Positions 20,859 through 58,831 of a stretch of 64,000 nt of DNA are shown piece by piece; positions within the stretch are counted from its first letter, which is position 1, and each line of letters begins with the position of its first letter. The stretch is from Bolinopsis microptera. Taxonomy: Eukaryota; Ctenophora; Tentaculata; Lobata; Bolinopsidae. The stretch spans positions 5,599,230 through 5,663,229 of the forward strand of contig NC_087079.1 in the NCBI RefSeq assembly GCF_026151205.1, in the 5' to 3' direction. The notes under the pieces were generated by a model. That model saw only the letters and a program-made list of their open reading frames with translations, made no database searches and was not told where the DNA came from. The translations under genes and the position numbers were made by a program.

Positions 20859-22690
20859 GGATACTAATATCTACACTGGAGGAAACTATTGCATGAGCAG
20901 AAACCCTGAGACAAAAGGTTGGCATTATTTAAGTACACAATAGTACATGTGGCATGGTTTGTAATTATTATTTGGTAAGAAATCAAAGGCTTTCATATTG
21001 TAGTAGTAGCAGCCTATATCTTACTGTATTACTGAAGCCTTACGCCGCGCCTGTGCACATGGGATATTGAGGAAAAATAAAGACTTTTGCATCATTGTAT
21101 GATTTCTGAGTACGAAGTCTTGTGAGGGTGATATACTTACAGACATGAACGAGAGCTACTCGTGAGTATACTACCACTTCTCCTTATGATGGCTGTTCAG
21201 TGAATGAAGTAATTTGTACCTTTACAGCCTATGGTTTTTTTAAGTTAATTAAAAAAATTGTAAGATTATACATGATACTTTGGAAACACTGCAATATTTG
21301 AAACAATTTTTATCAACTTCGATTTTATGTACATAATTTTTAGGAAATAACATGTACGGGCGACGTATAATTTACGGTATCGAAGAGTTTAGAGGATTCG
21401 GTTGACAGTGCAAACATGAGTCTGCATGATTGGGCTAACATTGCAAAAGTAATTGAAAAAGTAAGTGCCTTTTATTTCATTTTTGTTGCCGCTCTGACAT
21501 GGTTAACCCACCTTCCTTGTGTTGTTGGTAATCTTGATGAGTAGGATATAAAACATCATTTCATATTTTAACTAAAATATCGTGTTGGTATATATATCTG
21601 TCATGGTTATTGCTGTGTTAATTATTTCTATGTCGTAATTTTACTGATGTTTACAGTATTAGTGTTTACTCAGGGTACTACACAAATTTCGACGGTTTGT
21701 GGTTGTTCATGGTACTGACACAATGTCTTACCTGCATCAGCACTTAGTTTCCATGCTAGAAAAACTGGGAAAAGACTGTCATTTTGGACAGGCTTCAGGT
21801 AAAAGAAAAAAACAACGGCTGCTAAGATGTTTCTATTCTATCTAAAGAGCTAATCATAGTATTATTTCTTGTTCTTGGTATCGAAATTTATGAACTGGAA
21901 AGTGGGATAGCACATTGTATTGAATTTCTGAATGGAACCAATTCCCTAGATACCTTTGTGCGAGCAGAGAAACGGACGCAGTTTACAATTATTGGGATCC
22001 TAATATTCGCCGTCTCACTTTATCATACCCCAAACAAAACCCGAAGGTTGTAAAGCATGCTTAGTTTAACTTATAAATTAGTTATTATTTCATTGATTGA
22101 TAACTTAATTACCCCTCGTTTTATAACCGTTCATACAATGGTTAAATTAAGTTGACAAAGAATCACCGGTAGCAATATACTTCAACAACAAGCTGTTTCG
22201 TGGTAAACCGCTCCTAAAGGCAAAGTTGTGAGGATATTGGACCGCGTTTGATGCCCAATATGTCACCTTTAGCTGTGATGGGAACACACATTATAGTAAT
22301 TTACTGTGCTTTTAAAGATGTATTGCCTATTTAAATTCCCACCAGTTTTATAAATCATATCAATTCTTAAATCATTATAACATTTTTTATAAGGAGATCT
22401 GCTCTAAATAAGGAAATTATTTGCTGAGGAATTGAGGAACAACATTTAGGTATTACGATATAATTATAAATTATTAATTCCCTTTGTTCAGTTGAACTGG
22501 AAGAGTGTAGCAGACTCGACAAGTTCTCGCTGCCGTTCTTGTGTACAAATCAGATATGTGTAGCGAAGTGGTTATGTTGCGCCTTTCCCTGGCATGACTT
22601 GCTCCACGGGTTCGTTGTTTGGAATTATTGTTTCTACTGTTCTATTGCTGTCTCTTGAGTACTTATTGCACAAAACCAAACAGGGCACAG
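20859..22690 (+). pseudogene. ASPG: ASPG-like L-asparaginase/lysophospholipase, catalytic-domain exons (frames shifted)
   Basis: Six exon-like blocks in the order of type-I L-asparaginase. 20859-20917: YTGGTIGM plus RNPETK, with the nucleophile Thr. 21344-21460: RRIIYGIEEF, then DSANMSLHDWANIAKVIEK, donor GTAAGT. 21674-21798: YYTNFDG then the HGTDTM active-site block. 21950-22046: IPLCEQRN. 22173-22295: YFNNKLFRG, then PNMSPLAVMG. 22492-22690: LNWKSV, then an MLRLFPG-like stretch. Most are bounded by AG and GT. The enzyme hydrolyses L-asparagine in the cytosol, and animal forms carry C-terminal ankyrin repeats. Nearly every block needs one or more single-base insertions or deletions to stay in frame, often in short homopolymers. 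It is therefore either a pseudogene or poorly corrected consensus. The exon(s) before the 33.4-kb exon were not found. Confidence 0.8.
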
Positions 22691-23072
22691 GTATCAATGC
22701 TGATGTTTTCTATTTTCTATGAATATAAACTGTAATACATTGATGTAAAGTTATTTGAATTTTGCAATTTAAATAGAGGCTCTGTAATATTTCGCTTTAA
22801 AACCAAATTAAGAGGTTGGCACTTCTCAAGAGTCAAGGCTTCAAAAAATAAATCAAAAATATAGTTTCCAGTTTTTTAGACACTCATTGACCTACAGGTT
22901 ACTTAAATTTAAATGCGCCATGCACCCATTTACCAAACACCTTTAATATTACTTTCCACATTACCTCATATATTCCTCTATTAATATCCTACTTAAAATT
23001 CCACAGCTGCACCACTTCCTTGCTTCCTCCTATAAAAGGAGCAGTCTGCTAAGTTCGGGGCGGGAAATGGCC

Positions 23073-23450
23073 AAATTTAGGCACATTTTTCGTTTTTAAT
23101 ATTTACTGATTTTTCTAAAATTTTGATAGGAATGTGCTAGTGACTTTTTGAAGGGTGCAAAATAACCGCAACTAGCACATTTATATATGAGTTATGAACA
23201 ACAAAACACCCTAAAATGCTTCCCTTTGAAGTTATGGGAGAAAATGTGATTTTTTATCTGCAAAGTCAAAAAATCACATTTTCTCCCATAACTTCAAAGG
23301 GAAGCATTTTAGGGTGTTTTGTTGTTCATAAATCATATATAAATGTGCTAGTTGCGGTTATGTTGCACCCTTCAAAAAGTCACTAGCACATTCCTATCAA
23401 AATTTTAGAAAAATCAGTAAATATTAAAAACGAAAAATGTGCCTAAATTT
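23073..23450. repeat. Near-perfect palindrome, 183-bp arms with 12-nt loop
   Basis: Bases 23073-23255 and 23268-23450 are reverse complements with only about two mismatches and no indels by eye, around a loop at 23256-23267. A transcript in either direction would fold into a 183-bp hairpin. It lies in the ASPG intron and antisense-gene interval. It has the form of a foldback or MITE element. No target-site duplication is evident. Confidence 0.93.
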
Positions 23451-24034
23451 GTTGTTTGGCTTTGAGGTCCAATAGATCAGAAGGTGAATGAGTAAGAACA
23501 TTTTTGAGGGCATCAAAAACTGCGCCAGAATTCAGAGAACAATTTGATGTCAAGCATCAAATAATCCGATCTTCCCTGACTGACTTTTTGTTAAAATAAG
23601 CCTGAAAAGGACAATTTTAGCTTTTTGACTTTAAAAATTCATAACACACCAGCCTTTTTAGATACGATATCAAGATTTTACACACACCTTGACATAGATG
23701 TGAATAAACGGCGAGCAAAATTTCAACCCGATACCGCAAGAAATGATTAACTTATAGCGTCTCAACCACAAAATAATTTTTTCCGAAAATTGCACTCTTA
23801 ACCAGGAAATGCTCGATTACAAAAATGGGAATATTCAAAATAATTTTTTTTTGGTGTGGAAACGGTGCGCTAGAAGGTCACTGAACTGCCTATGAGGTCA
23901 TTTGGTCTGGACAGATTTGGGGTATGCCCCCTTAAGTGATGCAATGGAACACACACTACACTTAACTACTTAATGAACGAGCCTACTATCTACATTTAGC
24001 AACATTAAGTAAAGTTATCACTTATCAGTTGTAC

Positions 24035-24299
24035 CTGTGATGGAGAGAATGGTGAGAACTTCATTGATAAGGGGAACAAAGAAAAGGAAAGCCACCCCAA
24101 AACACAGCACCTCCCCCAGTACCCATCTCTTAGAGCACAACACAATAAACATGGGCAGGTAGAGAAGGAGGGAGACCAGTATGTCGGACACTGCTAGGTT
24201 GTGTACAAACATCAGGGAGATGGGGTCTAGTTTCAGAGCCTTGTGTACCAGGGACAGGTACAGGACTGCAGAGTTCCCTACCACTCCCACTATCACTAC
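24035..24299 (-). CDS. Class A GPCR exon 2 (TM1-TM3)
   Basis: Read on the minus strand, an AG acceptor (CCCACAG) precedes base 24299. The 265-nt exon encodes TM1 with GNSAVLYLS (the GN of TM1), the first intracellular loop, TM2 with HNLAVSDILVSLLLYLP (the LAxxD motif), the first extracellular loop with the conserved Trp (KRWVLGE) and Cys, and TM3 ending LTILSIT. It stops at CAG|GTACAA, just where the D/E-R-Y motif should follow. Phase 0 in, phase 1 out. This is a rhodopsin-family receptor, ligand unknown. Exons for TM4-TM7 were not found at lower coordinates, so the gene may be truncated or have further distant exons. Confidence 0.85.
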
Positions 24300-27200
24300 C
24301 TGTGGGGTTAGTGTTAGAGTCTAGTTTCAGAGCCTTGTGTACCAGGGACAGGTACAGGACTGCAGAGTTCCCTACCACTCCCACTATCACTACCTGTGGG
24401 ATTAGTTTTAGAGTCTAGTTTCAGAGCCTTGTGTACCAGGGACAGGTACAGGACTGCAGAGTTCCCTGCCACTCCCACTATCACTACCTGTGGGGTTAGT
24501 GTTAGGGTCTAGTTTCAGAGCCTTGTGTACCAGGGACAGGTACAGGACTGCAGAGTTCCCTACCACTCCCACTATCACTACCTGTGGGGTTACTGTTAGA
24601 GTCTAGTTTCAGAGCCTTGTGTACCAGTGACAGGTACAGGACTGCAGAGTTCCCTACCACTCCCACTATCACTACCTGTGGGGTTAGTGTTAGAGTTTAG
24701 TTTCAGAGCCTTGTGTACCAGGGACAGGTACAGTACTGCAGAGTTCCCTACCACTCCCACTATCACTACCTGTGGGGTTAGTGTTAGAGTCTAGTTTCAG
24801 AGCCTTGTGTACCAGGGACAGGTACAGTACTGCAGAGTTCCCTACCACTCCCACTATCACTACCTGTGGGGTTAGTGTTAGAGTCTAGTTTCAGAGCCTT
24901 GTGTACCAGGGACAGGTACAGGACTGCAGAGTTCCCTACCACTCCCACTATCACTACCTGTGGGGTTAGTGTTAGAGTCTAGTTTCAGAGCCTTGTGTAC
25001 CAGGGACAGGTACAGGACTGCAGAGTTCCCTACCACTCCCACTATCACTACCTGTGGGGTTAGTGTTAGAGTCTAGTTTCAGAGCCTTGTGTACCAGGGA
25101 CAGGTACAGGACTGCAGAGTTCCCTACCACTCCCACTATCACTACCTGTGGGGTTAGTGTTAGAGTCTAGTTTCAGAGCCTTGTGTACCAGGGACAGGTA
25201 TAGGACTGCAGAGTTCCCTACCACTCCCACTATCACTACCTGTGGGGTTAGTGTTAGAGTCTAGTTTCAGAGCCTTGTGTACCAGGGACAGGTATAGGAC
25301 TGCAGAGTTCCCTACCACTCCCACTATCACTACCTGTGGGGTTAGTGTTAGAGTCTAGTTTCAGAGCCTTGTGTACTAGGGACAGGTACAGGACTGCAGA
25401 GTTCCCTACCACTCCCACTATCACTACCTGTGGGGTTAGTGTAAGAGTCTAGTTTCAGAGCCTTGTGTACCAGGGACAGGTACAGGACTGCAGAGTTCCC
25501 TACCACTCCCACTATCACTACCTGTGGGGTTAGTGTTAGAGTCTAGTTTCAGAGCCTTGTGTACCAGGGACAGGTACAGGACTGCAGAGTTCCCTACCAC
25601 TCCCACTATCACTACCTGTGGGGTTAGTGTTAGAGTCTAGTTTCAGAGCCTTGTGTACCAGGGACAGGTATAGGACTGCAGAGTTCCCTACCACTCCCAC
25701 TATCACTACCTGTGGGGTTAGTGTTAGAGTCTAGTTTCAGAGCCTTGTGTACCAGGGACAGGTACAGGACTGCAGAGTTCCCTACCACTCCCACTATCAC
25801 TACCTGTGGGGTTAGTGTTAGAGTCTAGTTTCAGAGCCTTGTGTACCAGGGACAGGTACAGGACTGCAGAGTTCCCTACCACTCCCACTATCACTACCTG
25901 TGGGGTTAGTGTTAGAGTCTAGTTTCAGAGCCTTGTGTACCAGGGACAGGTACAGGACTGCAGAGTTCCCTACCACTCCCACTATCACTACCTGTGGGGT
26001 TAGTGTTAGAGTCTAGTTTCAGAGCCTTGTGTACCAGGGACAGGTACAGGACTGCAGAGTTCCCTACCACTCCCACTATCACTACCTGTGGGGTTAGTGT
26101 TAGAGTCTAGTTTCAGAGCCTTGTGTACCAGGGACAGGTACAGGACTGCAGAGTTCCCTACCACTCCCACTATCACTACCTGTGGGGTTAGTGTTAGAGT
26201 CTAGTTTCAGAGCCTTGTGTACCAGGGACAGGTATAGGACTGCAGAGTTCCCTACCACTCCCACTATCACTACCTGTGGGGTTAGTGTTAGAGTATAGTT
26301 TCAGAGCCTTGTGTACCAGGGACAGGTATAGGACTGCAGAGTTCCCTACCACTCCCACTATCACTACCTGTGGGGTTAGTGTTAGAGTCTAGTTTCAGAG
26401 CCTTGTGTACCAGGGACAGGTACAGGACTGCAGAGTTCCCTACCACTCCCACTATCACTACCTGTGGGGTTAGTGTTAGAGTCTAGTTTCAGAGCCTTGT
26501 GTACCAGGGACAGGTACAGGACTGCAGAGTTCCCTACCACTCCCACTATCACGACCTGTGGGGTTAGTGTTAGGGTCTAGTTTCAGAGCCTTGTGTACCA
26601 GGGACAGGTACAGGACTGCAGAGTTCCCTACCACTCCCACTATCACTACCTGTGGGGTTAGTGTTAGAGTTTAGTTTCAGAGCCTTGTGTACCAGGGACA
26701 GGTACAGGACTGCAGAGTTCCCTACCACTCCCACTATCACTACCTGTGGGGTTAGTTTTAGAGTCTAGTTTCAGAGCCTTGTGTACCAGGGACAGGTACA
26801 GGACTGCAGAGTTCCCTACCACTCCCACTATCACTACCTGTGGGGTTAGTGTTAGGGTCTAGTTTCAGAGCCTTGTGTACCAGGGACAGGTACAGGACTG
26901 CAGAGTTCCCTACCACTCCCACTATCACTACCTGTGGGGTTAGTGTTAGAGTCTAGTTTCAGAGCCTTGTGTACCAGGGACAGGTACAGGACTGCAGAGT
27001 TCCCTACCACTCCCACTATCACTACCTGTGGGGTTAGTGTTAGAGTCTAGTTTCAGAGCCTTGTGTACCAGGGACAGGTATAGGACTGCAGAGTTCCCTA
27101 CCACTCCCACTATCACTACCTGTGGGGTTAATGTTAGAGTCTAGTTTCAGAGCCTTGTGTACCAGGGACAGGTACAGGACTGCAGAGTTCCCTACCACTC

Positions 27201-28350
27201 CCACTATCACTACCTGTGGGGTTAGTGTTAGAGTCTAGTTTCAGAGCCTTGTGTACCAGGGACAGGTACAGTACTGCAGAGTTCCCTACCACTCCCACTA
27301 TCACTACCTGTGGGGTTAGTGTTAGAGTCTAGTTTCAGAGCCTTGTGTACCAGGGACAGGTACAGGACTGCAGAGTTCCCTACCACTCCCACTATCACTA
27401 CCTGTGGGGTTAGTGTTAGAGTCTAGTTTCAGAGCCTTGTGTACCAGGGACAGGTACAGGACTGCAGAGTTCCCTACCACTCCCACTATCACTACCTGTG
27501 GGGTTAATGTTAGAGTCTAGTTTCAGAGCCTTGTGTACCAGGGACAGGTACAGGACTGCAGAGTTCCCTACCACTCCCACTATCACTACCTGTGGGGTTA
27601 GTGTTAGAGTCTAGTTTCAGAGCCTTGTGTACCAGGGACAGGTACAGGACTGCAGAGTTCCCTACCACTCCCACTATCACTACCTGTGGGGTTAGTGTTA
27701 GAGTCTAGTTTCAGAGCCTTGTGTACCAGGGACAGGTACAGGACTGCAGAGTTCCCTGCCACTCCCACTATCACTACCTGTGGGGTTAGTGTTAGAGTCT
27801 AGTTTCAGAGCCTTGTGTACCAGGGACAGGTACAGCACAGGACTGCAGAGTTCCCTGCCACTCCCACTATCACTACCTGTGGGGTTAGTGTTAGAGTCTA
27901 GTTTCAGAGCCTTGTGTACCAGGGACAGGTACAGGACTGCAGAGTTCCCTGCCACTCCCACTATCACTACCTGTGGGGTTAGTGTTAGAGTCTAGTTTCA
28001 GAGCCTTGTGTACCAGGGACAGGTACAGGACTGCAGAGTTCCCTGCCACTCCCACTATCACTACCTGTGGGGTTAGTGTTAGAGTTTAGTTTCAGAGCCT
28101 TGTGTACCAGGGACAGGTACAGTACTGCAGAGTTCCCTACCACTCCCACTATCACTACCTGTGGGGTTAGTGTTAGAGTCTAGTTTCAGAGCCTTGTGTA
28201 CCAGGGACAGGTACAGGACTGCAGAGTTCCCTACCACTCCCACTATCACTACCTGTGGGGTTAGTGTTAGGGTCTAGTTTCAGAGCCTTGTGTACCAGGG
28301 ACAGGTACAGGACTGCAGAGTTCCCTACCACTCCCACTATCACTACCTGT
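24300..28350. repeat. 94-bp minisatellite, ~43 copies, each carrying the GPCR exon-2 start and its splice acceptor
   Basis: The array is a head-to-tail run of a 94-bp unit. On the minus strand each unit is 19 bp of intron tail (TCTAACACTAACCCCACAG) plus the first 75 bp of GPCR exon 2, up to the codons KLD. Units differ by few substitutions (for example GGTACAGGACT versus GGTATAGGACT or GGTACAGTACT). One unit near 27830 has a 5-bp insertion. The real exon lies at the left end. The right end joins different intron sequence (CTACAAACCCCACAG). Because 94 is not a multiple of 3, reading through successive units shifts frame. Confidence 0.96.
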
Positions 28351-28945
28351 GGGGTTTGTAGAACACTTTATCAAATTTGCTTCTTTTGTGTCTCATTAAA
28401 GACAATGTTGTTATAAATTAATCATGTTGTTTGGATCTGGAAGATCTTCACCACTCTCCAAATTCTAAATAGTCGATGGCGATCGACTATACTGTATCCA
28501 ATATTAATACGACTTTGCCAGAAAGTTGAGAACATTGGTTGTTATGCTTGATATGAAATTGAATAATTATACATGACAACAGGAGATATTGGCGTGCAGC
28601 TGATCGGCAAAACATAATTAGCGAAAACAAAACAAACAAGCGAATGAAATGATTAGAAGGTTGAATTGTGGCTATAGTGCAACGATTTAGAATTGGCTGT
28701 CGAGATTTGCAGTTGTAATTTAAATAGATGGCATAACGGTGTTTCCACTTGAAACGCTAGGAAATCGGAACATACTTTACTTAACTTATGTTTACTGTAG
28801 AATTAAAAACGGTTAAACGTGGTCTGGTAATGAATGTTTTTCTATTTTGATTGGCTGACCTTACCGACGATTTCTTAAAAACAGCAGCTCTTAATTGCTG
28901 CACTATAAAGCTATAAACTAGTCACTCTTCATGACGTTAAAATAC

Positions 28946-29056
28946 CAGTAAATTGTAGAGGAGAAGTATGGGCCTTGTTGTTGAGGTGAGGGCGTATCCC
29001 GGAGTCTCAAGAATATCAGATATATTTGTTATATTCGTCCCATCCACTGTAAACAT
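28946..29056 (-). CDS. Probable GPCR exon 1 (extracellular N-terminus and start of TM1)
   Basis: On the minus strand an ATG at 29056 begins 37 codons. They include MFTVDGTNITNISDI, with two N-glycosylation sequons (NIT, NIS), and end in a hydrophobic PILLLYNLL before a GTATTT donor at 28945. Phase 0 matches exon 2 exactly, and LLYNLL|VVIVGVVGNS would form a continuous TM1. The open frame extends further upstream to an ATG at 29131. Fits the extracellular tail of a class A receptor. The pairing with exon 2 across the 94-bp array is an inference from phase, content and order. Confidence 0.6.
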
Positions 29057-29952
29057 GATATTGTGCCCTGGAGTTCGAGGTTGGTTAGTCAAAATAAAGT
29101 GAAGTGAAAGGAGAGGCTGTTCCAAAAACAATATTATTTACCGCCACATTCAAACAAATAACAAAGCAAACAACATTAACTAATACGTGGTATCTATCTG
29201 CTAATAATCGTACGCGTGCCAAGTTATCCGCATATCCTTGACCGGCTCACTTTTCTAGAATGAGCGTTATAAACTAAATACACTATTGTCTTACCAAAAC
29301 TTCTTAATTATACAACATAACATAATTCTGATTCTAGGCTGTTTGCTAGCAGTGTGGCACTCCTATCCAAATATACTACAAAGAAAAACCTAAACATTTG
29401 ACTTTTACTCTCTAAGTAGTATTATCAAGAACAAAAATGGAAAATTACCCGTTTCTAAATAGTCAACTTTATGAAACAGGTGACTCTATTGAGCAATCTG
29501 TAATATGAATAATATAAAGGAGCAATGAACCATACTATGTATATAATGTATATAATAAACGATATGGCACATCAATGACAAATAGCAAACGTCATACCAT
29601 CATGGTAGTCCTTAGTCTGATGTAACTATAGTATTTTATATTGCATTGAAGAAATGTCTTGAACGAGGGAGGAATGTTAATTAAACATGGAGATCAAGGG
29701 GCCATCAAGAGCCTGATTATAGAATACATCTAATTCTAATGAGAACTAGGTCTGAATATATTGTGTACTAATTATTCATATTGGGACGATGGAGTCCGGA
29801 CGGCTGCTGGCCCAATAATTTACTGATATTAAAGAAAAGTTGGCTTTCAATATATTATTTATTGATAAAAGCGTCCGTGTGATCCACCATCCTTTCCGAC
29901 GAAGTAGGTATAATAAGGTAGCGTATATAATTAAGAAAGCAAACCCACACAT

Positions 29953-31076
29953 AGCCTCGGGTATAGGATACTAGGGCGTAGGAAACAAAGGCGGTAGACG
30001 CAAGAGCGGAGGACACTAGGGCGTAGGAAACAAAGGCGGTAGACGCAAGAGCGGAGGACACGAGGGCGTAGGAAACAAAGGTGGTAGACGCAAGAGCGGA
30101 GGACACTAGGGCGTAGGAAACAAAGGTGGTAGACGCAAGAGCGGAGGACACTAGGGCGTAGGAAACAAAGGCGGTAGACGCAAGAGCGGAGGACACTAGG
30201 GCGTAGGAAACAAAGGTGGTAGACGCAAGAGCGGAGGACACTAGGGCGTAGGAAACAAAGGTGGTAGACGCAAGAGCGGAGGACACTAGGGCGTAGGAAA
30301 CAAAGGCGGTAGACGCAAGAGCGGAGGACACGAGGGCGTAGGAAACAAAGGCGGTAGACGCAAGAGCGGAGGACACGAGGGCGTAGGAAACAAAGGCGGT
30401 AGACGCAAGAGCGGAGGACACTAGGGCGTAGGAAACAAAGGCGGTAGACGCAAGAGCGGAGGACACTAGGGCGTAGGAAACAAAGGCGGTAGACGCAAGA
30501 GCGGAGGACACTAGGGCGTAGGAAACAAAGGTGGTAGACACAAGAGCGGAGGACACTAGGGCGTAGGAAACAAAGGCGGTAGACGCAAGAGCGGAGGACA
30601 CGAGGGCGTAGGAAACAAAGGCGGTAGACGCAAGAGCGGAGGACACGAGGGCGTAGGAAACAAAGGCGGTAGACGCAAGAGCGGAGGACACTAGGGCGTA
30701 GGAAACAAAGGCGGTAGACGCAAGAGCGGAGGACACTAGGGCGTAGGAAACAAAGGCGGTAGACGCAAGAGCGGAGGACACTAGGGCGTAGGAAACAAAG
30801 GCGGTAGACGCAAGAGCGGAGGACACTAGGGCGTAGGAAACAAAGGCGGTAGACGCAAGAGCGGAGGACACGAGGGCGTAGGAAACAAAGGTGGTAGACG
30901 CAAGAGCGGAGGACACGAGGGCGTAGGAAACAAAGGCGGTAGACGCAAGAGCGGAGGACACTAGGGCGTAGGAAACAAAGGCGGTAGACGCAAGAGCGGA
31001 GGACACTAGGGCGTAGGAAACAAAGGTGGTAGACGCAAGAGCGGAGGACACGAGGGCGTAGGAAACAAGGGCGTTA
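29953..31076. repeat. 45-bp minisatellite, ~25 copies, built from 15-bp subunits
   Basis: The unit is GGACACKAGGGCGTA + GGAAACAAAGGYGGT + AGACGCAAGAGCGGA, three diverged 15-mers. Because 45 is a multiple of 3, the minus strand stays open for 398 codons (29855-31051) as repeats of YALVS/SALAS/TAFVS. That frame has no start context or domain and I regard it as non-coding. The right end runs into a sequence repeated in inverted orientation at 31585-31662. Confidence 0.95.
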
Positions 31077-31662: not shown

Positions 31663-31879
31663 TTCCCATAGTCTATTCGTGGACAGAACCAAAATCTCAT
31701 CGAAAGTAACCGCTCAATTTGGAGAGACGCTGAAGGGAATTTCTAATCAGGATCTAATTATGAATATAAACATCTTGATTGATTTCAGGATTTACTTATT
31801 AATATTATGTAAAGAGAGTTCCGGATTAGGTAAAAGATGAATTCTTGAAATCTTAGGAGTCATTCACAATTCACATAAT

Positions 31880-32023
31880 ATTACGTTATCAGCCGAGGGG
31901 GAGGAGGGGGGGGGGGGTTTCCAAATGATTACGCTAGTATAATTTTTACACAATAGCTCTGTGTAAAAATTATTACGGAGGGGGGAGGGGGGTTAAAAAT
32001 GTGCCAAAAAGTGATTACGTAAT
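31880..32023. repeat. G-run-containing MITE-like repeat with internal 13-bp stem
   Basis: The segment starts TTACGTTATCAGCCGAGGG and ends GTGATTACGTAA. It holds two G-rich runs (about 31897-31917 and 31978-31992) and a perfect stem TAATTTTTACACA / TGTGTAAAAATTA around ATAGCTC. A reverse-complement relative of its left half, with a longer C run, lies at 36283-36350. Confidence 0.55.
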
Positions 32024-39827: not shown

Positions 39828-39859
39828 GTAATATATTACGTTTTATTAATTATGTATGG

Positions 39860-42830: not shown

Positions 42831-42859
42831 CTTCACCCATAGGGAACTGTTTGCAATGT

Positions 42860-46638: not shown

Positions 46639-46695
<57 letters not shown>

Positions 46696-49600
46696 ATTTA
46701 ATTTTTCTGTAACAGTTTTGGACTAACAGATATCCTCCTTTCGAAGTTCTTGGTTAAAAACGATTTTTCCACTAAAGATCCGGGAAGCTGGGATCCTCAT
46801 ACGGGTTTTCAAATTCATTATGGGTTTTGTGTTTATTTTCTGCCTATAAATACACGATTGGTTATTAGTTTCTAAAAATGAGTTGACAATGCGATAAGTG
46901 CGGTAAGTCTTACCCAACAAACACATCTTATATCAACACAACATTTAGCACATCCTGAGCCAAAACTAATGTGGTTAACCATTCTCATGATGGAGCAAAT
47001 CTTCTAAACGACCTAGAAGCTATAATTTTACCACACAAACCAAAAAAAACGTGAGATGCTCCCTCCTATAAACAAACTCAAGACAACTAGAGAAAAACCT
47101 AGAGTTTAAGAAATTAAACCTAACCCAGATCCTCAAAATATGTCGGGCAGGGTTGACGAGGGTCTAAAGGTTGTTGACAGTTATGGTGATGACGAACGGG
47201 AGATGATGGGTTAAGAGTTGTTGATAGTTATGATGATGATGGCCAGGGAGATATCAACTCAAGATAATTGATAGCTATGATGATGAGGGTCAGTCGATGT
47301 TATTTAACGTAATTGATAGTTTTTGACACTTTTGATTACAAGAAATTGTATGAAAGATTGTTTAGAGTCTAAAAGATTGTAAAGAAAGATTACCAGCAAA
47401 CACTTGATAACATCAAAAGGAAGTACGAAGAAAAAATATCTGATCTTAAAGAAGGTTATAGAAGTAGATTAGTGAATTTGTGATAAAATGAAGATGAATA
47501 TGAGAAAGAATCCAAAAAATGCGGGATGCACATGGTAAAACATCCAAACTTACGAGATGCAACATGATAAGGTATGGAGGACTACGAACAGAGTGTAGAG
47601 AAAGATAAACTCCTCTCAGTCAACTCCAAGCAGTAAAAGATGATGATGAGGATTTGGAGTAATCTCCACAAAGCAATCTTTATACGCACGACGATGGAGG
47701 AAATTTTTCAAATTCGAAATAGTTAAAAATCATCAAATTGATGAGTTGGTTCAAAAAACCACCTTACCATACACTTCAAAATTCTATTTTTGAGTTTGTC
47801 ATTTGGTATTTTACGATTTTGCCAACACAAGCGATCCAAGATAACAGTTGAACAACGTCGTGTTGTTTGAGCAATACAGGTAGCCTCACAATCAAGTGCT
47901 AAAAATATTCTCAAAAAAAAAGAGGTGAAGTAATTAAACCTTTCACAATCATAAGAGACTCCATTAAGTTAGCTAGAGATGCATATAACAGGTATGGGCC
48001 TCTGTGTACGCTATAAAAAAGCATTAAATACTACGTGAAATAAGACATGAAATTGCCAAGTTGGTATTCAAAGTTATGCATCTCTAACCTTTGCGTTTAA
48101 ATTACCTCTCAATCTTAATACCCAACAAGTTATTTCTATTTTGAAGGTGAAAATCAACATGCAATATTTTTCAAGGAACAAATAACACCTAGTTCTATAC
48201 ATGGAGCAGGGAGCAAAACTTTTTCTCACTATTTCTAAAACAGTAAATCAATCAACATTTTATTTTTCTGGAGGGGTTTGAAGTTGATGGTGCACCATGA
48301 ACAAGTTCATTCTGAGGGAAAAGTCTTCAAGTTCGATTACATTAACCTTCTTTTCATGTATATTTTGAATGAACTAGAATCATCTACTTATCAGAGAAGT
48401 TTGTATTACATATGGTTGTAAATTATTGGTATATCATCTTAATTTGTGTTAGTTGCGGGAATTACATATGACTCAAAAAGAAAGAGGAGGCAGCTTAATG
48501 AAAACAGTTTCATAGCTTTACCAATATCAGGATTTTCAGATTACCTCAAACTGATACTATAAAATACCAATGCTGAGTGATTGAATCATTTCCATCGACT
48601 TGTTTTTGTTCTGTTTGTGAAATTAGTAAAGAAAAACAGTTTTTTGGTTTTTGCAGAATGACGTTTTATGATAAAATTGTAGATTGGGTTGTTTTCTTGT
48701 TGAAAACATTATAAGAAATGCGTGTCTTTGACAGCTACAGAATGTTCCGGGAGTAAGATGATATGAAGATATGACATACTTTCACTTGCATCATCAACTA
48801 TCACTTCCTCAGATAAAGTACAGATTTCATTTTGAAAAACTCGTGGTGAAGTTTTGGGTCTTTACAAAACATTATATAAAAACTTTGAATCAAAGCTACC
48901 TTATAGTCGATATCAAGAAGGTATGATTATTTACTGTACTGTGGTAGATCTTTCCTGCTAACATGCTCACCGCAAGCTATTATAACGGTCGCTATGTTAA
49001 TGAATGAATCAATCTGTTATCGCAGAAAGTTTTAAGCTCAACAGCCGATAAAAATCGTAAAAAAGGGTTACTTAATCAGCGGGAGATGGACAAAATCATT
49101 TCATACTATTTTACAACTTAGCATACGTTGCAAATATGAAGTTTTACATTGCTACCTCTGGGTACAGATTACCTAGCGGTTTAATAGTTAAGGAAATCTG
49201 TTGTTTGTTTCCTAACGAAGAGTACTAACCACCTACATTCTAAACTCCAGACGAATGGGGATTTGAGTGATGTTGATAAAGAACAATTCGCTTTGCAATG
49301 AAGAACCTCAATCAGCCTTTCTATCACGACGGAAGATTTCCTACGAGAGCATAGAAACAATCTTTTACGAGATATCAAGAGTATCAAGTATACACTTACA
49401 GTCGTGTTACATTTTAAATTACTTCAAAAATATCTTTACAACATCTATCATGTTAATGTCAAAGTTTAGATATCGGATGCCAAGTGAATTACCAACCCCA
49501 AGTGTTGTAGGGTACAAACACAAGGTACTGCGCTAAGCAAAATCTATTGCTATCAAAACCTTTATGGAATCTTAATTGTTTGAAATTGAAAGTTTTTATT

Positions 49601-49800
49601 AATATGAGTTCGGATAAAAGTATTTACTTTAAAGTTGTAATGTAACTACATTTTAATAATTTTAAGCGATTTTGAGTTTTATTTTTTCACCTAATATTGA
49701 GATCGGATAAATGTATTTTCTTTTAAGTTGTAATGTAACTACATTTAATAATTTTAAGCGATTTCTGAGTTTTATGAGATACGGGGCGCGCGCATCAAAT
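45621..49800. other. Low-information interval with a 53-nt C tract
   Basis: No intact gene. A run of 53 C occupies 46643-46695. Around 47155-47310 a GTTGATAGTTATGATGATGA-like phrase recurs about four times. Around 47380-47480 a short plus-strand frame (DNIKRKYEEKISDLKEGY) looks coiled-coil. At 49267-49536 there is a short plus-strand frame. These may be further Polinton debris, but I cannot show it. Confidence 0.35.
46643..46695. repeat. Homopolymer run of 53 C
   Basis: Uninterrupted C run between ATTTAA and ATTTAA. Expected to be length-variable, capable of i-motif/G-quadruplex folding, and hard to sequence accurately. Confidence 0.97.
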
Positions 49801-51980
49801 AATGCTTCTCGCAGATCGGCGAGATGCACCACTGTGCCTCACCGAGCTGCGAAGGATTGACATCGTGAATCAAAAACCACGCTAAAATATTTGTGAAGTA
49901 CGACCAGGAAGCCAATAATAAAACGGCATGAGCACACACGTACAGTATGAGAAGGGGAAAGTAATACTAATAGTAATAGTAATAGTATCTGTTAAACATT
50001 TTTAAAGGCTAGGGCCAGGTTGTGATCATAGTTGTTTCAAGCAAAGAATTTTAAAACGGTCAATACGCAATATGATTTTGTTAGAAAAATATGATTTCTT
50101 AACAATCTTTATACGTTTGGACAATGATTCCGAATCATCCCCCACCCCTTCACTTAACCATGTTACAGGGTAATAAAACGATAATTCGATTGTTTAAAAA
50201 AGTGTTTAAGTAATAGTCACGTGATATAATAACAATTTATTAATCGTCATCTAGTTAAATCTTAGGAATGCATAACACACCAGCCGTCCAGCCACTTGCT
50301 ACACGTTGTGTACCTGAACCTTTTATCTTATCTTATCGGCGGCGAAAAGGGGTTGCAACGTGTGTCAACCAGCCGCACGGCTCATCTCAAACCCATTTTA
50401 TCAACAACTGTGGATGTGATCATTGCTCTGAGCAAGTCAGATCATGCGAACATGGCCCGAGTAACTTGTTTTATAATTTGTTTGCTCTGAGTGTATCACT
50501 ATCAGCACGATTAACCAGTATAGTGACGCGACGCGTTTAGGAATAGGATTACCGAATCATCAAATATTCGATATTCGATATTCGGTACCGAATATGTTAC
50601 GTCGGTGACCTTAAAAATTAGTGAAAACTGTTATGGGATAATAGTAATACTCATAGAGATAAACCAGAGTTTTGATGCCACTGCCAGTACAAATGAAAAA
50701 AAAAAGCATTTTTCCTAAATAAAATCATGCATGATACAATTACAAACATCCAGATATATATAGATTATAGTCCAACTCCAAGCATTATTCTGTAAGGTAC
50801 AAACAGTTTTACAGATATCATAACGGAGTAAAAATAAGTTCATATATACAGTAAAAGTTTATTTAAAAATTCTAGAAGTAGTCTTAGTTACCTCTCGGAG
50901 ATTATTTCGTCGGTTATATATAATGTAAAAAATTTGATTTTAAATTTTTTTGAAATTCATGTATGTTCAGACTTCAGATAATCGAAAATAGCGAATACCT
51001 TATTTTGAGGCGACAAATACAACACAATGTTAAATAACGACCGACGTTTCGTTATAATTATCTTAGTCCATAAATATTAAATAGGTATAATCTTTAGGAC
51101 AGTCCAAAGTTAAGAGTAAGACACAAAGGACAAATTAACAACAGCGCACATAATAAGGCCACAAACTTAAAAACAACTCAACAAGATGAGAGTTGTCCAG
51201 TACATGCGTCGTCATTAATACCACCATTATTTAAACTAATGTAGCGTAACGTTTAAGACGGTTGATTACAATTACATGATGCTTACTATTTTATCATCTT
51301 TTCATATTATTGTGATCGTATTTATCATATCATGATCGTATTAAGCTAGTTTGATAATAAAATAAGTCACTGATTATGTAATATGGATAATATGGACACC
51401 AAACATACTCTCCAGCAATTTGATCAATCACTAAAATAGGGACTCTTTAAAATACTAAAATAGGGTCTTAACGCCATCATAGACAATGGAGCGGGAGGAA
51501 AATGTTCCCGTTTGTCTATCTGTATTAAACTATGTAATCATGACCGTTTTATCGCAATATTTTTACAATTTCGGCTTTTAATTCTATCATCATGCAGATT
51601 ACAGAGTTGTCTGTAACTGTATAAGTTAATAAATATTTTATGTTACTTTAAACAGTCGCCGTATTTAGTTATTTGTAGGTTTAAAATAACAACGATATTA
51701 AATGTTTTGACCGACGAACGATGATCCCTGAAAGAACAGCAAATGGTTGTTTAGTCACTCGTCCTTACATACCTGCTCATTACATAGTGCAGTATCGTAA
51801 ATTAAAATCTACGTTCATAACTTTCATTTAATACAAGTTCAGCACTTAAACACACGTAACATAATTTCCTACGTAAAAATATCATAAATCGCATGCAGTG
51901 TATAAAAGTTAATAGTAAAATTCGCCATACTGACTTAGTCATAGTGACCTTTTACTATTTCCTATCCGTGACAAACATTC
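49801..51980. other. Non-coding interval
   Basis: No supported gene. Only short features are visible, such as a palindromic AATATTCGATATTCGATATT-type patch near 50565 and microsatellite-like TAATAG near 49965. Confidence 0.45.
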
Positions 51981-52105
51981 AACCAAGATTGGACCAATTT
52001 TGAACTAGAGTAAACCAGTTTCGCACAAGATTAGACCAATTTTGTGCAAGATTACAGCGGTTTTGTTCATGGTCGGACCAATGCTGCACAAGATTAGACC
52101 AATCG
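51981..52105. repeat. Imperfect repeat AAGATTAGACCAAT (~4 copies)
   Basis: AAGATTGGACCAATTTTG, AAGATTAGACCAATTTTG, a diverged GGTCGGACCAATGCTG and AAGATTAGACCAATCG follow at about 35-bp spacing. It lies just beyond the stop codon of the ASPG C-terminal exon, so probably in its 3' UTR. Confidence 0.6.
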
Positions 52106-52198
52106 TGGTTATAAGTTTGTCGCAGCCGTACTCCGTTATATTGCGTATTCGTTAGCTAGGTGAATATCCTAAAGAGTTTCCAGACTGTCAGAAGACTA

Positions 52199-55100
52199 TC
52201 ACGAGAAACCGGTTCTATTAAGGACTGAGATCATATCCTCAGCAGTCAGCCCACCTAAATCCTTCAACTGAAATAAGATTATCGTCAGCAATTCAGAGAA
52301 ATAACTTATTTCTTAATATTATAATAGGTGCTTTGTACAATCATAAACTAGGGTTTGAAACTAGTTTTTGATATTCTTTGGTGCACAAATATCCAATTGT
52401 TGTAAAACATGATAAAACCATACCGTTCGGTCGGCTCCACATTCAAGTAGTTTCTTGTAGCATTCCACCGAATTGAACATCACACTCTGCAGTGAGATTT
52501 ATTACATTACATTTAATATAATTTTGAACAGATATATAGTTGATGCAGAATTATACCCAGTATTCCCGAGTGAATGATGCCCAGTGAAACCCCCTCCAAA
52601 ACAAGCTCACAAGTTATCGACTCAGACGAACACTTTAACTCAACACAATTATTTAAAAAAGGTTAAGAAACAATTAATAAGTTAAATCAATAAACAAGTT
52701 AAATAGATTGGTAAGCTAAATTAATTAACAAGTAACAACATACCATGTGTAAAGGGGTGCATTTTCCGGACCCTATTGCGTTAAGGTTGGCTTTTGCGAG
52801 CACCCACAGATCTAACTGTTCTGGATCATTCTCCATAACGGACCTGGCGGGGAATACATTGGTCAGAGGTCTATAATGCACTTGTCAACGATGAGCGAAA
52901 CAACGTACATAATATACAGTTACACATTTAAAGAAAATAGCTGATATAATACAAAAGTATAGCGATTACTTGAAAATTCCTAGTTTTCTGTCAAACAGCC
53001 AACTGAACTGTAACCGAGATTGCATTTCGACGGTCAATATTACATGTGTGATATGCATTGTATCTTTATAGTTTATCATTAGTTTTGTGTAACAGCACCC
53101 ATCAATTATACACGCGTGAAGCCGAAAAATACTTCTCGCTAGCTAGCTAGCTAGCTCACTCGTTCGTTCGATCGATTCGTTCATTCTGTTATTGACGTTC
53201 ATACCATCAAGTTACTTTAAATATAAATTAATGATTCGGCGTTAGCGCGCTACGTTTAAGAATATATTTCTAGAAAATACGTTCGAATTCTCTAGAAGTT
53301 ACGTTTGCTTGCCAGAAAATAGCTGTGTTTCCAGAAAATAGTGGATTGATAATTACTGTTGATCTAATTACACTTAGTTTGTTTTCTGACGCGCTTTATA
53401 AAGACAAAGCCTTGAAATGAAAAAAAATTAAAGACGGCAAGGCTTCAAATTGACAAATTAAAGACGCCACAATAGGTCTCAAAATAGATCGGACGCGGAT
53501 GTAATAGAACACATTTCACACACTGACCATACTTCTACCAGCAAAGACGGGTTGCGCTGATTTAAAGATGGTGAAGCCTTTAAAATGGTGAAAATTAAAG
53601 GCGCTGAAGCCTTCGCCAAAGTGAACCGTCTTTATATAACGAACTGAGTTGTTGATCTAATTGTTGATTTTGCTCCTTAGATAACAACATCAGTCAACAG
53701 ATCTATTGTATGCCGATTGTTGCATAATGAAAACTCTCAGCTCGACTTGAGATCTGTGGCGATGTTTCAAAGTCATCAGAAGAGCAAATAACTGTACCAC
53801 GAAACTAATATCTTGCTCCAGGCTGCGAATCGATTGTTTAATTATATTGTGTCTTTTGTTCTTTCGTGGAGCATTTTACTAACAAATAGCTATTGATTAT
53901 CGCTTCTATCATTAAGATACTAACAATTTACTACTTACTAAAGTTACAAGTTGCTAACAAGTTACTGCATTACTTACGAGCACATATTACTTATTAGCAT
54001 TACTTACAAGCACAAGGCATCTGCTATCTGTATATCTGAATACTGAAGGTGAGCCCCCGCCTTTAGCATCAACTTTACCACATCTGTACGTCTGAAGAAG
54101 TTAAATAATGTTGATTGTTATGTTATGTAAGGTTATGTAAGGTTATGTAAGGTTATGTAAGGTTATGTAAGGTTATGTAAGGTTATGTAATGTTATGTAA
54201 TGTTAATTGTAATGTTATGTAATGTTAATTGTAATGTTATGTAAGGTTATGTAATGTTTAATGTAAGGTAATGTGTAACCTAGAAAGTATATAAAAGATG
54301 TAAAATGTACGTACTCTTCTTCGTTGGCAGGATTGACAAGCACAGAATTGTACAGAATAATTTTTATTGAGATGAGGGGCGAGGGTGAGCTAATTTAGAA
54401 AAATTCCGCACTTTTTAGCAGAAACCCATACTCTGTAGAAACAGAGACTTAATCGGAAGCTTCTCAAAAAACTGGGGTGAATTGGTCAGTGTATTTTGCC
54501 GTCGTGCGGGTAGGACGTTATGGGGTATATTATAATCACATCTCGAATTTTTTTACATTTTAGAAAAATGTAGAAAAATATAATCACGTTTACGTTTGCA
54601 TGGTCCTGAAAAAGTGAAAAAGCCTTGATCATGGTATGTTGATTGTAACACACGGGTATAAAGTTAGGATATAAATATTAGATCACGCTCATCACGGATA
54701 CATTTTTTAGATCGATAAATTTGGGAACTCGATCAACGGAGCGGTAATCTGTTTCGGTGACCATGAGTTTGATAGTTTAACACGCTTTACCGCTTAATTT
54801 ATTTAACAGAGAAAATTAAATTAAAATTCTGATGCAAATGACAAATCTAACTAGAATTCAGTCCACGAGCAGAGAAGGTGCAATGAATGGGGTTTAAAGA
54901 CATCGTAAATCCTCAAGTAAATTTCTACCTTTCTACACTCGAAAAGAAACCTTAAAAAACGCTCGGCAAAAGATAACGGTTATATTCTAAATATAATTAA
55001 ATACAATTAAATATACGATGATGGAAGATAAACTGTATCGGAAGATTGATATTAACTTATCTGTAACAGCAGCTGTAAAGCGTAAGTTAAAGTACAAACT

Positions 55101-55315
55101 TGTTTTTGTAAGTTAAAGTACAAACTTGTTTTTGTAAGTTAAAGTACAAACTTGTTTTTGATAGCGTCCACCAGGGGAGTATTACCAGCTCTGTCCTTAC
55201 AATGAACTATAGCTCCGTTCTTGAGGAGGAACTCTGCAGCCTCACAGTGCCCCTCGCAGGCAGCCAGGTGCAGTGGGGTCCTGCCATCGTAGTCTGCCTT
55301 GTTTACTGACACGCA
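52199..55315 (-). CDS. ASPG: ASPG-like gene, ankyrin-repeat C-terminal exons (five exons)
   Basis: Minus-strand exons whose phases join without correction. 55315-55152: KADYDGRTPLHLAACEGH, FLLKNGAIVHCKDRAGNTPL. 54091-54008: RTDVVKLMLKAGAHL, IQIADALC. 52843-52744: SVMENDPEQLDLWVLAKANL, CTPLHM. 52486-52424: NSVECYKKLLECGADRT. 52267-52199: LKDLGGLTAEDMISVLN, then the TGA stop. Acceptors are TTACCTGCAG, ACTTCTTCAG, CCCCGCCAG, CTCACTGCAG and TTATTTCAG. Donors are GTTTGT, GTAAGT, GTATGT and GTATGG. These are ankyrin repeats in the order and spacing of the ASPG C-terminus, about 159 residues. Exons upstream of 55315 were not securely found. The strand is opposite to the catalytic half at 20.9-33.5 kb. 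Confidence 0.85.
53136..53175. repeat. GCTA and CGTT tetranucleotide microsatellites
   Basis: A short (GCTA)n run is followed by CGTTCGTTCGATCGATTCGTTC, inside an intron of the ASPG C-terminal half. Confidence 0.8.
54118..54255. repeat. 10-bp repeat (GGTTATGTAA)
   Basis: About six exact GGTTATGTAA decamers are followed by diverged TGTTATGTAA and TGTTAATTGTAA units, in the intron just upstream (gene sense) of exon 54091-54008. Confidence 0.9.
55082..55159. repeat. Three exact 26-bp units spanning the exon 55315-55152 splice donor
   Basis: 55082-55107, 55108-55133 and 55134-55159 are identical. In gene sense each unit contains AAAAACAA|GTTTGT, the donor used at 55152/55151, so the 5' splice site is present three times in a row at 26-nt spacing. 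Confidence 0.95.
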
Positions 55316-55319
55316 CTGC

Positions 55320-57770
55320 AGGTAAAGTACAGGGCTTAAGTTCTGTGGTAAAGTAATGGCTGAACAGTTAACTGTGGTAAACGGTGGTAATCAAACAGCG
55401 TTTCTTAAACAGAGTTTTACTGATTTATATTTTTTTGATAGATTTTCCTACGTGGTTAAACACTGACATCATTTCTTTTCCTGTCCTTCAGTCATAACCA
55501 CTGCTTTATTTTATTGCACTATTTCTTGTAAGTTACTTAACCTTTATTTCTGAAACCCAGAAATTCTTATCAATAATTATAACCATTTAGCTCTACTTGA
55601 AACGATGTACGATCAGTAGTATTAATACTTTTCATACAAGTTATAACAAAATCTTCATGTTATGTATCCTGGGTTTGGACAGGACATTACCCGCTTAAAA
55701 TATTTCCATCGCGATACATAATAACTGAAATATAATATATTTTTCAATAAATTATGCAATCAACAACATTAAATCACCAAACAGTACGGACTCTGGAATG
55801 CTGGACGTTTACAAAAATATCTCCCACAAAAGGAACATGATCTGGTTTATTTCGTCATAAAATATTTCACACCAACCTATCCACTTAGCAACACAGATAT
55901 AAGCATAGAGCTGGAATTCCCATCATTGTAAACTTAATTATGTCGCGTGCAAAATGATATACAAGGATCGCCCCAGTAATTTGTGAAAAGAGCCTAAGGT
56001 TAGGAACTGCAATACAAACAGTGTTAAAATGTACATTGAAAATACACATGTCCGATATTTGGTGATTAGTTATGGCCCTTATCTCTCAAGAAATCAGATG
56101 TGGATTGTTCCTGCTTTAAAAAAAATTTCTTTAGAATTTAAATAGTTGACCAATAATGTCAGGGAATCAAAAACTCGAAGTGAGTGGAGTGACTGGGTTG
56201 TAGTTTAGGCGGGCTTGTTTAAGGACACAAGAAAAATTGTTTTAAGGGGGACTATGCGTTGCAATTAAATTATTTACGAGATTTATTGTTATTCAGTCAG
56301 ACTTTTAACTCAATTCATGGTATCTTTTTATTTTAAATCTGGTCTTTCTTTGCTAACCCACAGACGAAGTTTTTTTGCAAGATACATACATATCACAGCA
56401 GGACATTAGCCACCATGTGATGTTTTAGAATTATGGGCAGAACTGATGAGTGGTTGTTAAAAACTAAGATAACTATAAAAAAATTGTTAAAATGGACAGG
56501 ACAATCTAAAGCTTCCTGGAATAACGTGTTTCTAAACAATTTTCGCATTATTAAAGTGTAAATAAAAAACAAATATTCAGTCTTTTCTACAATTCCATTG
56601 AACGATTACAGTTTAATTGAAGGTAAGGGCAGCTAAAAGCTACAAATAATAAGGCTTACGTTCTTCATTTACCTTGTACTCCGTAATGTACGTTACCCCA
56701 AAACACAATTCAAACTTGAGATTGTAAGTTCACCCTGGAACCCAATTAAACTTTGAGATCGCGTGTGAAAACTTCCATTTAATTCTGGACTGACTGGAGT
56801 ATCTCGGCGAGAAACTCACGTGCAAAGATTAGAAGATATATGTGGTATTTTAAAATATGTAATAGTACTAATCAGGGAGTAAATTACAAGGCTACCCTGC
56901 TTGTAACAGCCTCGGTGGAGTTTTATCCAGTCTTTTACCCAATCCGGCTGCATTACAATAACAGTAGGTTAGTATAGCTTCAGGTAAGAGCCTGATTCTC
57001 CTTCTGAGAGAAAACCTCCAGGCGAGATAACCGGGTGAGGATGGGTGTTAGTTTCCAAGGTAACACTTAGACAGGTAACACCGTGGACAGATAACACGTG
57101 GACAGATAACCGTGAACAGAGCGGAGATAACCTGGGAGAGGAAGGGAGTAGTTTCCAAGGTAAAACCAGTGACAGTTAACACGTGACAGATAAACACGTG
57201 ACAGGTAACACGTGGACAGCGTAGTGATTAACCAATCAGCCTTCCATAGGTTGCAAGCTTTTAAACATAGAATCGCTGTCACGGTGGTCCAAATTTGATA
57301 TGCGTTCATCACCAGAACCTCCCGGTATATGATAGATACACTTCTGGGGTGGACATGACGTGACAGCTTCAGGCGGACGGACCAAATAATGTCTCACATC
57401 GTGTCCTTCATCCAAAAAAAATATACTTAAAAACAGTATTTAAGTCCACCCTCCGGCGCCCAGTAGTCAATATATCGAGACATAAATCTGGGTGGTTCTG
57501 ACGGGGGGGGGGGGGCGTTCTGAGTAAACCCTTAATATGATCCATTGGTGTGCGTGACAATTTTATAGACACTACTTTTTACGACAAGGAACGGGGGAAA
57601 TTTATAAAAACCACTAAAAATAATGTTACCATCAACCTTAAACAGCTCAACACATTTACACTAAATTTTGAAAAATTGTTTCTGCTTAATTTAAACGAGG
57701 GAAACTAAAACTCTTCTTAATTTTATGACAGACATTTCTTCTTAAAATTTGTTGAGAACCCTGTGTTCTT
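55320..57770. other. Intronic or intergenic DNA upstream (gene sense) of the ankyrin exons
   Basis: No gene placed with confidence. A minus-strand stretch near 56985-56885 reads CNAAGLG...RLLQAG, which could be part of a missing ankyrin exon, but it lacks clear borders. About 57060-57230 holds an imperfect ACACGTGGACAGATAACAC-type repeat. Confidence 0.35.
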
Positions 57771-58187
57771 CTTAACTGTCATACCCGAAGCGCTCCAAAA
57801 CACGTCACATTTCACCTGATCATGCGCTCAGGCGTTACCGCTGCTGTCGTGACTCATCAAACCAAACATCCTTTGCTGGCCCCATTATACGGAGGGTGCG
57901 GACAGGTTTTGATTGTCAAGGTGGCACCTCGCACTGTCGGACGGTTACAAACTGGCGAGGAAACCAAATCCACAGTCCGTAATTGTTGACTAATATCTGC
58001 CTGCTTGGCCAGTCCACTCTCTCCAGCTGTAGGCGTCAGTATCGTTGATCTGGCAACACCAGGAGGCAGGTCCAAGGGCACATGGAGGAGAACCGGTTAC
58101 ACCGTCGGGGGTACTCAAGCTCTTCAGTTTATTTGGTGGGTATGGCTTAGTAAATCAAGGCAAAACAAAACAGCCGAGCAGTTTCAT
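57770..58187 (-). pseudogene. Broken secreted-cysteine-protein paralogue
   Basis: On the minus strand from 58187 the landmarks of the secreted family appear in order but in shifting frames: a signal-peptide start, STPDGVTGSPPCAL, YSWREWTG, DCGF and, near the end, KCDVFWSAS. There are in-frame stops and at least two shifts. It differs from paralogues 1-3 and is therefore a fourth family member, not part of the inverted copy. Confidence 0.65.
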
Positions 58188-58831
58188 CTTGAAATTTGCT
58201 AGAAAAGTAAGTCCCATTTCTGGTTGTTATTCCTAATATTATATATTATAATATATGCGCTAAAAAAAGTTAACCAGATGATATTCGATTTCAGCACGAC
58301 CGAATATATTATGTTAAATCAATTTAAGTCGAAGTTGGCTTATTTACAAGCTGTTTTGTGGCACAGGGCCAGCTGTCTGGAGAATTCAATTATTTTACTC
58401 TAATTTATATGAATTTTTCAAACAGTGTCTGAAAAAATATTTTGAAGGGCATCCTGCTATCTTGTTCAGCTGTTGGGTGCTAATTGTAAGATATGATAAG
58501 GGTGGGGAAGGGGGGGGGGGAGGCGCGAGGGTAGGTAATGAGTTAATGTCAGCTCTCTTAGGAGTCAGTATTTACAGATGACCATTCTTGTTCGAGCTCG
58601 AAATTCTTGTTTAAACAAGCTAATACCTCTAGAATTGGGGTGATTGTTTGATTTTCCATTGGTAAACCAACTGTAGTTCTAGGGACAGGATGTTACTAGT
58701 TTATTTTTTTTAAATAAATGCTTAAGTGCACGGAACAATAATTAAAAAACATGTATTGAGGTTACAAGATAAAAATCCATTTTAAATTTAACAACTTTTA
58801 AAGTAACTAGTATATAATCCCGCATTTTCTT

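Follow-up and report, generated by a model that had tools for sequence, protein, structure and literature searches.

The split ASPG gene and inverted repeat of a Bolinopsis microptera contig as a very probable assembly artifact

What would explain a gene whose first and last exons lie on opposite strands, with one arm of a large inverted repeat between them and the other arm beyond? The question is raised by the gene of the 60-kDa asparaginase (ASPG) in a stretch of 64,000 nucleotides from the ctenophore Bolinopsis microptera (assembly GCF_026151205.1, contig NC_087079.1, abbreviated C8, at C8:5599230-5663229), referred to below as the window. An initial annotation of this stretch left two answers side by side, a true inversion that arose through exchange between the arms, or a middle segment reversed in the assembly. 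The comparisons presented here favor the second, in that, with a probability of about 0.93, the split gene and the inverted repeat together are an artifact of assembly at one locus and not a biological feature.

The genome searched comprised 264.65 Mb in 232 contigs, and the region examined around the window was C8 5535001-5703229. Positions are those of the window (win), values below 1 or above 64000 lying outside it; region positions (reg) are C8 positions minus 5535000, and win = reg − 64229.

The exons show the domain order expected of ASPG, with ankyrin repeats after the N and C domains of the asparaginase: when concatenated, the exon peptides of two clean pieces described below, A and K3, match PF00710, PF17763 and Ank families above the cut-off, and align along PDB 5dnc, the structure of an L-asparaginase whose C-terminus is ankyrin-like. 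The opposite strands reported for these exons were recovered for the HGTDTM, FNNKL and LRGEM motifs (plus) and for the ankyrin exons and stop codon (minus), but TGGTIG, also reported, has no in-frame reading within the window, where TGGNYC is read instead. The exons and motifs are:

20848-20922, 21074-21144, 21383-21460, 21684-21773 and 22169-22292, plus strand: noisy matches to asparaginase exons
21708-21725, plus strand: HGTDTM
22181-22195, plus strand: FNNKL
33386-33481, plus strand: LRGEMT exon, within clean piece K2, 32/32 residues identical to copy A
33404-33418, plus strand: LRGEM
55315-55151, minus strand: ANK1, clean exon
54090-54010, minus strand: ANK2, clean exon
52848-52744, minus strand: ASPG 3′ exon piece, clean
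52483-52421, minus strand: ASPG 3′ exon piece, clean
52264-52202, minus strand: terminal exon piece, clean, ending at the stop

Two asparaginase exons of copy A (reg 10871-11032 and 12344-12457) have no match in the window, where their expected place is the join at about 23,072, and the last four exon pieces have no match in copy A. No ASPG exons were found elsewhere in the whole-genome searches, the coverage searched not strictly excluding a third copy, and the other matches were weak generic ankyrin ones (E 0.02 or worse); ASPG is probably a single-copy enzyme here.

Clean pieces and uncorrected tracts

The assembly renders the ASPG block four times in about 160 kb, as copies A to D, with frameshifts in exons of B, C and D, and four pieces of it, K1 to K4, are clean:

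reg 6443-37841, plus strand: copy A, clean between the first exon and the first ankyrin exon, both included (win -55501 to -27251), the clean 5′ version, 27-56 kb upstream of the window start
17.4-42.42 kb, plus strand: copy B, with noisy asparaginase exons, two exons without a match and a clean LRGEMT exon
75.2 to 52.2 kb, minus strand: copy C, whose LRGEMT exon is noisy and lies beyond the window end, at about 67.9-68.0 kb, and which is clean from ANK1 to the stop
75.2 to 99.7 kb, plus strand: copy D, noisy except in the last three exon pieces, which are clean or almost clean
K1, identical with copy A: 5′ part to the first ankyrin exon
23072-42420, plus strand: K2, in copy B, assigned to haplotype 2, with 0.4-4.5 small indels/kb against A in three stretches
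about 49800-55800, minus strand: K3, the ASPG 3′ end, with borders at about 49.8-50.2 kb and 55.75-55.83 kb, and 1.8-3.0 small indels/kb against K4 and A
from about 99 kb: K4, a second ASPG 3′ part

K1 overlaps both K2 and K3, and K3 overlaps K4; in these overlaps (K1/K2, K1/K3, K3/K4) substitutions amount to 1.6-3.9%, and the overlapping exon proteins of both clean sets are identical (LRGEMT exon 32/32, ANK1 55/55 residues). Two clean versions of each part of ASPG thus exist at a few percent divergence, and no third was found in the genome searches. Most simply, the animal would be heterozygous, with K1 and K4 from one haplotype and K2 and K3 from the other, and either haplotype would hold a single colinear ASPG; the clean 5′ version of copy A and the clean 3′ end at about 99 kb probably belong together, to the haplotype other than that of K2 and K3. 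Each set carries an insertion relative to the other, K2 relative to K1 and K1 relative to K2. An element at 33757-35760, present in B, C and D and without a match in A, serves as a structural marker of haplotype 2 and is probably a heterozygous insertion, and the insert of A (reg 20084-24267) has no match in C or D.

Clean and noisy pairs were compared with one aligner at one setting, small indels being those of 1-2 bases. Five clean pairs (A/B in three stretches, A/K3 and K4/K3) gave 0.4-4.5 small indels/kb with 16-39 mismatches/kb; B against C gave 67 small indels/kb in both stretches (46.6 insertions and 20.4 deletions per kb), B against D 64 and 69, and K3 against D 91 and 77. A third alignment setting raised the mismatch rates, to as much as 4.4% for A/B outside the noisy 5′ part and to 22.6% for C against D. 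The whole tract from about 55.8 to 98.9 kb, some 43 kb with 64-91 small indels/kb, has the spectrum of an uncorrected read in both of its arms: insertions outnumber deletions 2.3-4.0 times in C and D, and most inserted bases adjoin an identical base. A tandem array with a unit of 94 bp in A and B has units of 96-100 bp in the center of C and D, a lengthening such as insertions would produce. The noise ends at about 55.75-55.83 kb and at about 98.85-99.05 kb, both borders lying inside the gene and the noise stopping within a few hundred bases.

The inverted match, the arms, the uncorrected tracts and the joins are distributed as follows:

37059-42420, plus strand: left arm, clean, haplotype 2
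58408-64000, minus strand: right arm, an uncorrected rendering of the left arm, with the same allele and independent errors
55800-64000, minus strand: noisy tract, taken as pass C of a foldback, continuing to about 75.23 kb, with pass D from there to about 98.9 kb
8013-17382, strand not assigned: copy of a dispersed repeat with raw-read-like errors, about 9.4 kb
19472-23072, plus strand: noisy ASPG 5′ part, 89% to copy A, with 28.9 insertions and 24.8 deletions per kb (54 small indels/kb)
23072-23936: 5′ end of K2, occupied by part of a palindromic dispersed repeat
42420/42421: false join, where clean K2 meets uncorrected sequence starting in the mid-body of a dispersed repeat
42421 to about 49800: uncorrected filler consisting of that repeat, whose content reaches to about 49775

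A large inverted repeat had been described here, and the match itself stands (37059-42420 with 64000-58408, 88.8% over 5.67 kb, extending beyond the window end); it is not a true repeat, since its right arm is the left arm with noise added.

Uncorrected sequence is also present to the left of K2 and to the right of its end. The left noisy tract was tested at 9.4-11.7, 17.4-18.1 and 19.5-23.07 kb, and from these samples its remainder, from about 7.7 kb, would be of the same kind; the noise at 19.5-23.07 kb takes in the asparaginase exons at 20.8-22.3 kb, which are thus uncorrected as well. Three copies of the 8013-17382 repeat elsewhere in the genome are 99.0-99.5% identical to one another, with 0-2 small gaps in 1.7-1.8 kb, whereas the window copy (sampled at 9.4-11.7 kb) shows 102-105 gaps of 1-2 bases against each of them in about 2.07 kb, and it matches the larger genomic copies at 85-91% along both halves. 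The filler at 42.42-49.8 kb likewise has about 50 small indels/kb against its nearest genomic copy in two 2-kb samples, compared with 2.5 between the nearest and the second copy and 0 between the second and the third; a first view of 42.42-55.8 kb as clean throughout was dropped, given the indel density as far as about 49.8 kb. Insertions and deletions stand at a ratio of about 0.6-1.2 in the left tract (about 7.7-23.07 kb) and in the filler, unlike the 2.3-4.0 of the right tract, and these two stretches therefore probably come from other reads, or from another correction step.

At the false join, A, C and D continue through the position where B stops, and the repeat does not begin there: sampled at seven of the eight other places that match from its first base, it runs past the point corresponding to 42,421 in 7/7 cases, for 455-600 bases (600 being the length examined), on which grounds a transposon boundary was rejected. 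The repeat has matches of more than 2.6 kb on seven other contigs, and contains a run of 53 C at 46643-46695. At 23,072 the noise gives way to the palindromic dispersed repeat, and most of the 81 matches listed for it cover, at 95-98%, the stretch between 23072 and about 23936, as a rule in overlapping pairs with one match on each strand; judged from these paired matches, the whole repeat would be about 1.36 kb. The match of copy A, in turn, ends at the start of a 10-bp array of K3, a dispersed repeat beginning about 75 bases on.

The alleles carried by the noisy passes

In the strict allele test, limited to differences between A and B at which both neighboring bases match (158 sites in five aligned blocks), pass C has the base of B at 151, that of A at 1 and another at 6, and pass D has 150, 1 and 7, respectively. 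Where A and B agree (7082 sites), C deviates at 350 and D at 405, and both deviate at 13, compared with 20 expected under independence. An unrestricted count with a different aligner (179 sites in four blocks) gave 151 sites with the base of B, 15 with that of A and 13 with another for C, and 152, 10 and 17 for D, a result that points the same way but scatters more. In the tail, D has the base of K3 at 27 of the 29 isolated differences between A and K3, with 1 for A and 1 other; in the unrestricted form of this test (56 sites) the figures are 28, 7 and 21. The same allele with independent errors implies that the assembly repeats a single stretch of DNA in the two arms and, as read from the assembled letters, C and D are B plus independent errors.

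Pass D is colinear all the way between the arm and the gene's end, with breaks only at masked arrays and short unmatched stretches. As it carries the alleles of both B and K3, a single uncorrected pass links these two pieces, in the order LRGEMT exon, arm, ankyrin exons and stop; and as the passes keep this order and the allele of K3, it follows that the ankyrin piece K3 (about 50-55.8 kb) is reversed in the assembly. The alternative of a reversed middle segment is thus borne out by uncorrected passes of the same haplotype running colinearly from the left arm to the ankyrin exons, its extent being narrower than proposed: the clean ankyrin piece is the reversed part, with uncorrected filler making up the remainder of the middle segment. 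Nor does the flip restore everything that had been expected of it. Reversing win 42,421-58,408 puts the end of B beside its own continuation and the ankyrin exons in order, but a complete gene inside the window does not result, two asparaginase exons still being missing near 23,072 and the first exons being uncorrected. The two halves, described as sharing no protein content, are without overlap only within the 64 kb; beyond it, the minus-strand copy reaches the noisy LRGEMT exon and about 75.2 kb. As for a second complete ASPG, which had been named as a finding that would speak against the proposal, half of it is present in copy A, which begins with the first exon, includes the first ankyrin exon and lacks the last four exon pieces. 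The absence of these last exons had raised the idea of a tail exchange, in which the 3′ end of A was lost to C by recombination; it was dropped, as A ends like a contig end and D has the allele of K3.

This reading would clear the locus of a split gene and an inverted repeat that are both false; its annotation would otherwise yield fragments or pseudogenes of a probably single-copy enzyme. The test used needs the assembly only: when both arms show the same allele relative to a third copy, and differ by independent small errors alone, they are one stretch of DNA rendered repeatedly.

A possible path to the present arrangement

The arrangement could have arisen as follows. Some 43 kb of uncorrected long-read sequence between K3 and K4 folds back at about 75.23 kb, and its two passes render a single stretch of the K2/K3 haplotype, once in each orientation; a molecule with the same locus at both ends, on opposite strands, would fit only between allelic pieces placed head to head, and K3 would have been turned accordingly; and further uncorrected stretches, before 23.07 kb and from 42.42 to about 49.8 kb, fill the remaining gaps. 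The error spectra, the palindrome, the identity of the alleles, the colinear order of the gene in the two passes and the join in the middle of a repeat are observed. Beyond these, the noisy tract would be a single foldback read, entered by gap filling, that caused the reversal of K3; the two clean sets would be haplotypes and not paralogs; and the stretches left with no clean sequence would amount to about 1.3 kb and 2.6 kb.

The center of the tract has the form that such a molecule would give. At about win 75,230 the tandem array switches from the minus to the plus strand, the arms overlapping by a couple of bases with no spacer between them, and the two arms are the same locus on opposite strands by their alleles (151 and 150 of 158). 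The fold lies about 5% of the tract length off the midpoint, the tract ends being noise borders that may differ from the ends of the read.

Several known systems resemble parts of this picture. Unpurged haplotypic duplication is a known type of assembly error, and it shares with this locus the two versions, diverged by a few percent and placed one after the other. Foldback artifacts of long reads (PMC12870357) likewise consist of a locus read twice, once on each strand, and may or may not have a spacer between the two segments; the filter given there requires a fold within 10% of the read midpoint, where the fold here also lies, and foldbacks are said to be able to tangle the assembly graph. 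The difference is that the present artifact lies inside a finished assembly and is recognized by its error spectrum and alleles, while those described there are mainly from Nanopore reads. Palindromic PacBio reads, due to missed adapters or whole-genome amplification and treated by Pacasus, are similar in that artificial inverted duplications are carried into an assembly, the gorilla Y being a case of a false inverted duplication (PMC6218980); here, by contrast, no adapter remnant was found at the fold. Finally, gap closers working with raw long reads, such as LR_Gapcloser (PMC6324547) and TGS-GapCloser (PMC7476103), would leave uncorrected sequence between clean pieces, as is seen here between pieces ending at or near repeats. 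Any part of such tools in the making of this assembly is presumed.

Certain observations weigh against this reconstruction. The looser alignment is less clean, with 118 errors shared by C and D where about 77 are expected, a weaker result that we put down to alignment noise. The search for a hairpin adapter remnant at the fold, made with an assumed adapter sequence, found none there, its best score being 21 as compared with 22-25 in six other stretches; such a remnant belongs to the missed-adapter form of foldback only. The read behind the filler at 42.42-49.8 kb may span K2 and the far side of K3, which would favor the present orientation; a repeat-led misjoin would be the likelier source of its placement, given that the filler starts in the middle of a repeat. 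The artifact reading is drawn from the assembled sequence itself. The insertion excess of the right tract resembles, we assume, that of older PacBio reads. Foldbacks, in turn, were found mainly in Nanopore data, with virtually none in three PacBio sets (PMC12870357; Heinz, Meyerson and Li 2026).

Other explanations and other features of the stretch

Another explanation accepts that the noise and the reversal are artifactual and takes K1/K4 and K2/K3 as neighboring ASPG genes, recent paralogs of each other. It is a variant of the artifact explanation, compatible with its main point, and although unlikely it has some appeal, both sets being clean, with identical proteins in the overlapping exons and an insertion in each relative to the other. 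Against it, there are two clean versions of each part with a similar divergence of 1.6-3.9% throughout, a third copy was not found in the genome searches, and the pieces end at or near repeats; two clean versions, similar divergence and ends at repeats are what unpurged haplotigs typically present.

Real tandem and inverted duplications, with A intact and B, C and D decaying as pseudogenes, would account for four renderings of the block within about 160 kb and for the frameshifted exons of three of them. However, C and D have no excess of shared differences from B (13 seen, 20 expected), the noise breaks off abruptly at two points within the gene, about 55.8 and 98.9 kb, and two unrelated dispersed repeats of the window carry indel noise of this sort against genomic copies that are clean among themselves. 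Decay of B, C and D was rejected on the independent errors and the abrupt borders, and the explanation as a whole is very improbable.

Slightly less probable still is a real inversion of about 42.4-58.4 kb, perhaps polymorphic, which would have split ASPG through exchange between inverted repeats. The inverted match of 88.8% over 5.67 kb does flank the segment, the clean ankyrin exons do face away from the clean LRGEMT exon, and some read must underlie the filler at 42.42-49.8 kb. However, the right arm is the allele of the left arm with independent errors, so that a second arm on the chromosome is not shown, and the pair of inverted repeats on one chromosome that defines inversion by recombination is not what is found; the order is uninverted in each of the two noisy passes, which stem from the same haplotype; and the left break lies in the middle of a repeat, the sequence beyond it being uncorrected. 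It is likewise very improbable, in the last place, that at least three haplotypes were sequenced together, one of them truly inverted and without the ankyrin part of ASPG, and the foldback read stemming from an uninverted haplotype with the same alleles. A diverged real repeat, as which the arms pass within the 64 kb, was rejected on the indel spectrum and the flanks.

Some smaller features accompany the locus. The haplotype 2 element at 33757-35760 has, on the minus strand, an open frame of 668 residues, reverse-transcriptase-like by eye, that ends in a weak GIY-YIG match below the Pfam cut-off, and which we take to be Penelope-like. The array at 24225-28356 has a unit of 94 bp in 43.9 copies, as against 38 in copy A; the unit, read on the minus strand, is presumably similar to transmembrane segment 1 of a rhodopsin-like receptor, and the flanking reading frame at 24021-24320 (minus strand) would continue, we assume, like segment 2, so that the array is possibly an exon-derived satellite. 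The left arm encodes related short, secreted-looking proteins at 37054-37455, at about 40.2 kb and at 41588-42010, and the two that were tested have no Pfam match. Outside these stretches, at 6507-6757, there is a palindrome about 250 bases long, with an alignment of 85% between its two strands.

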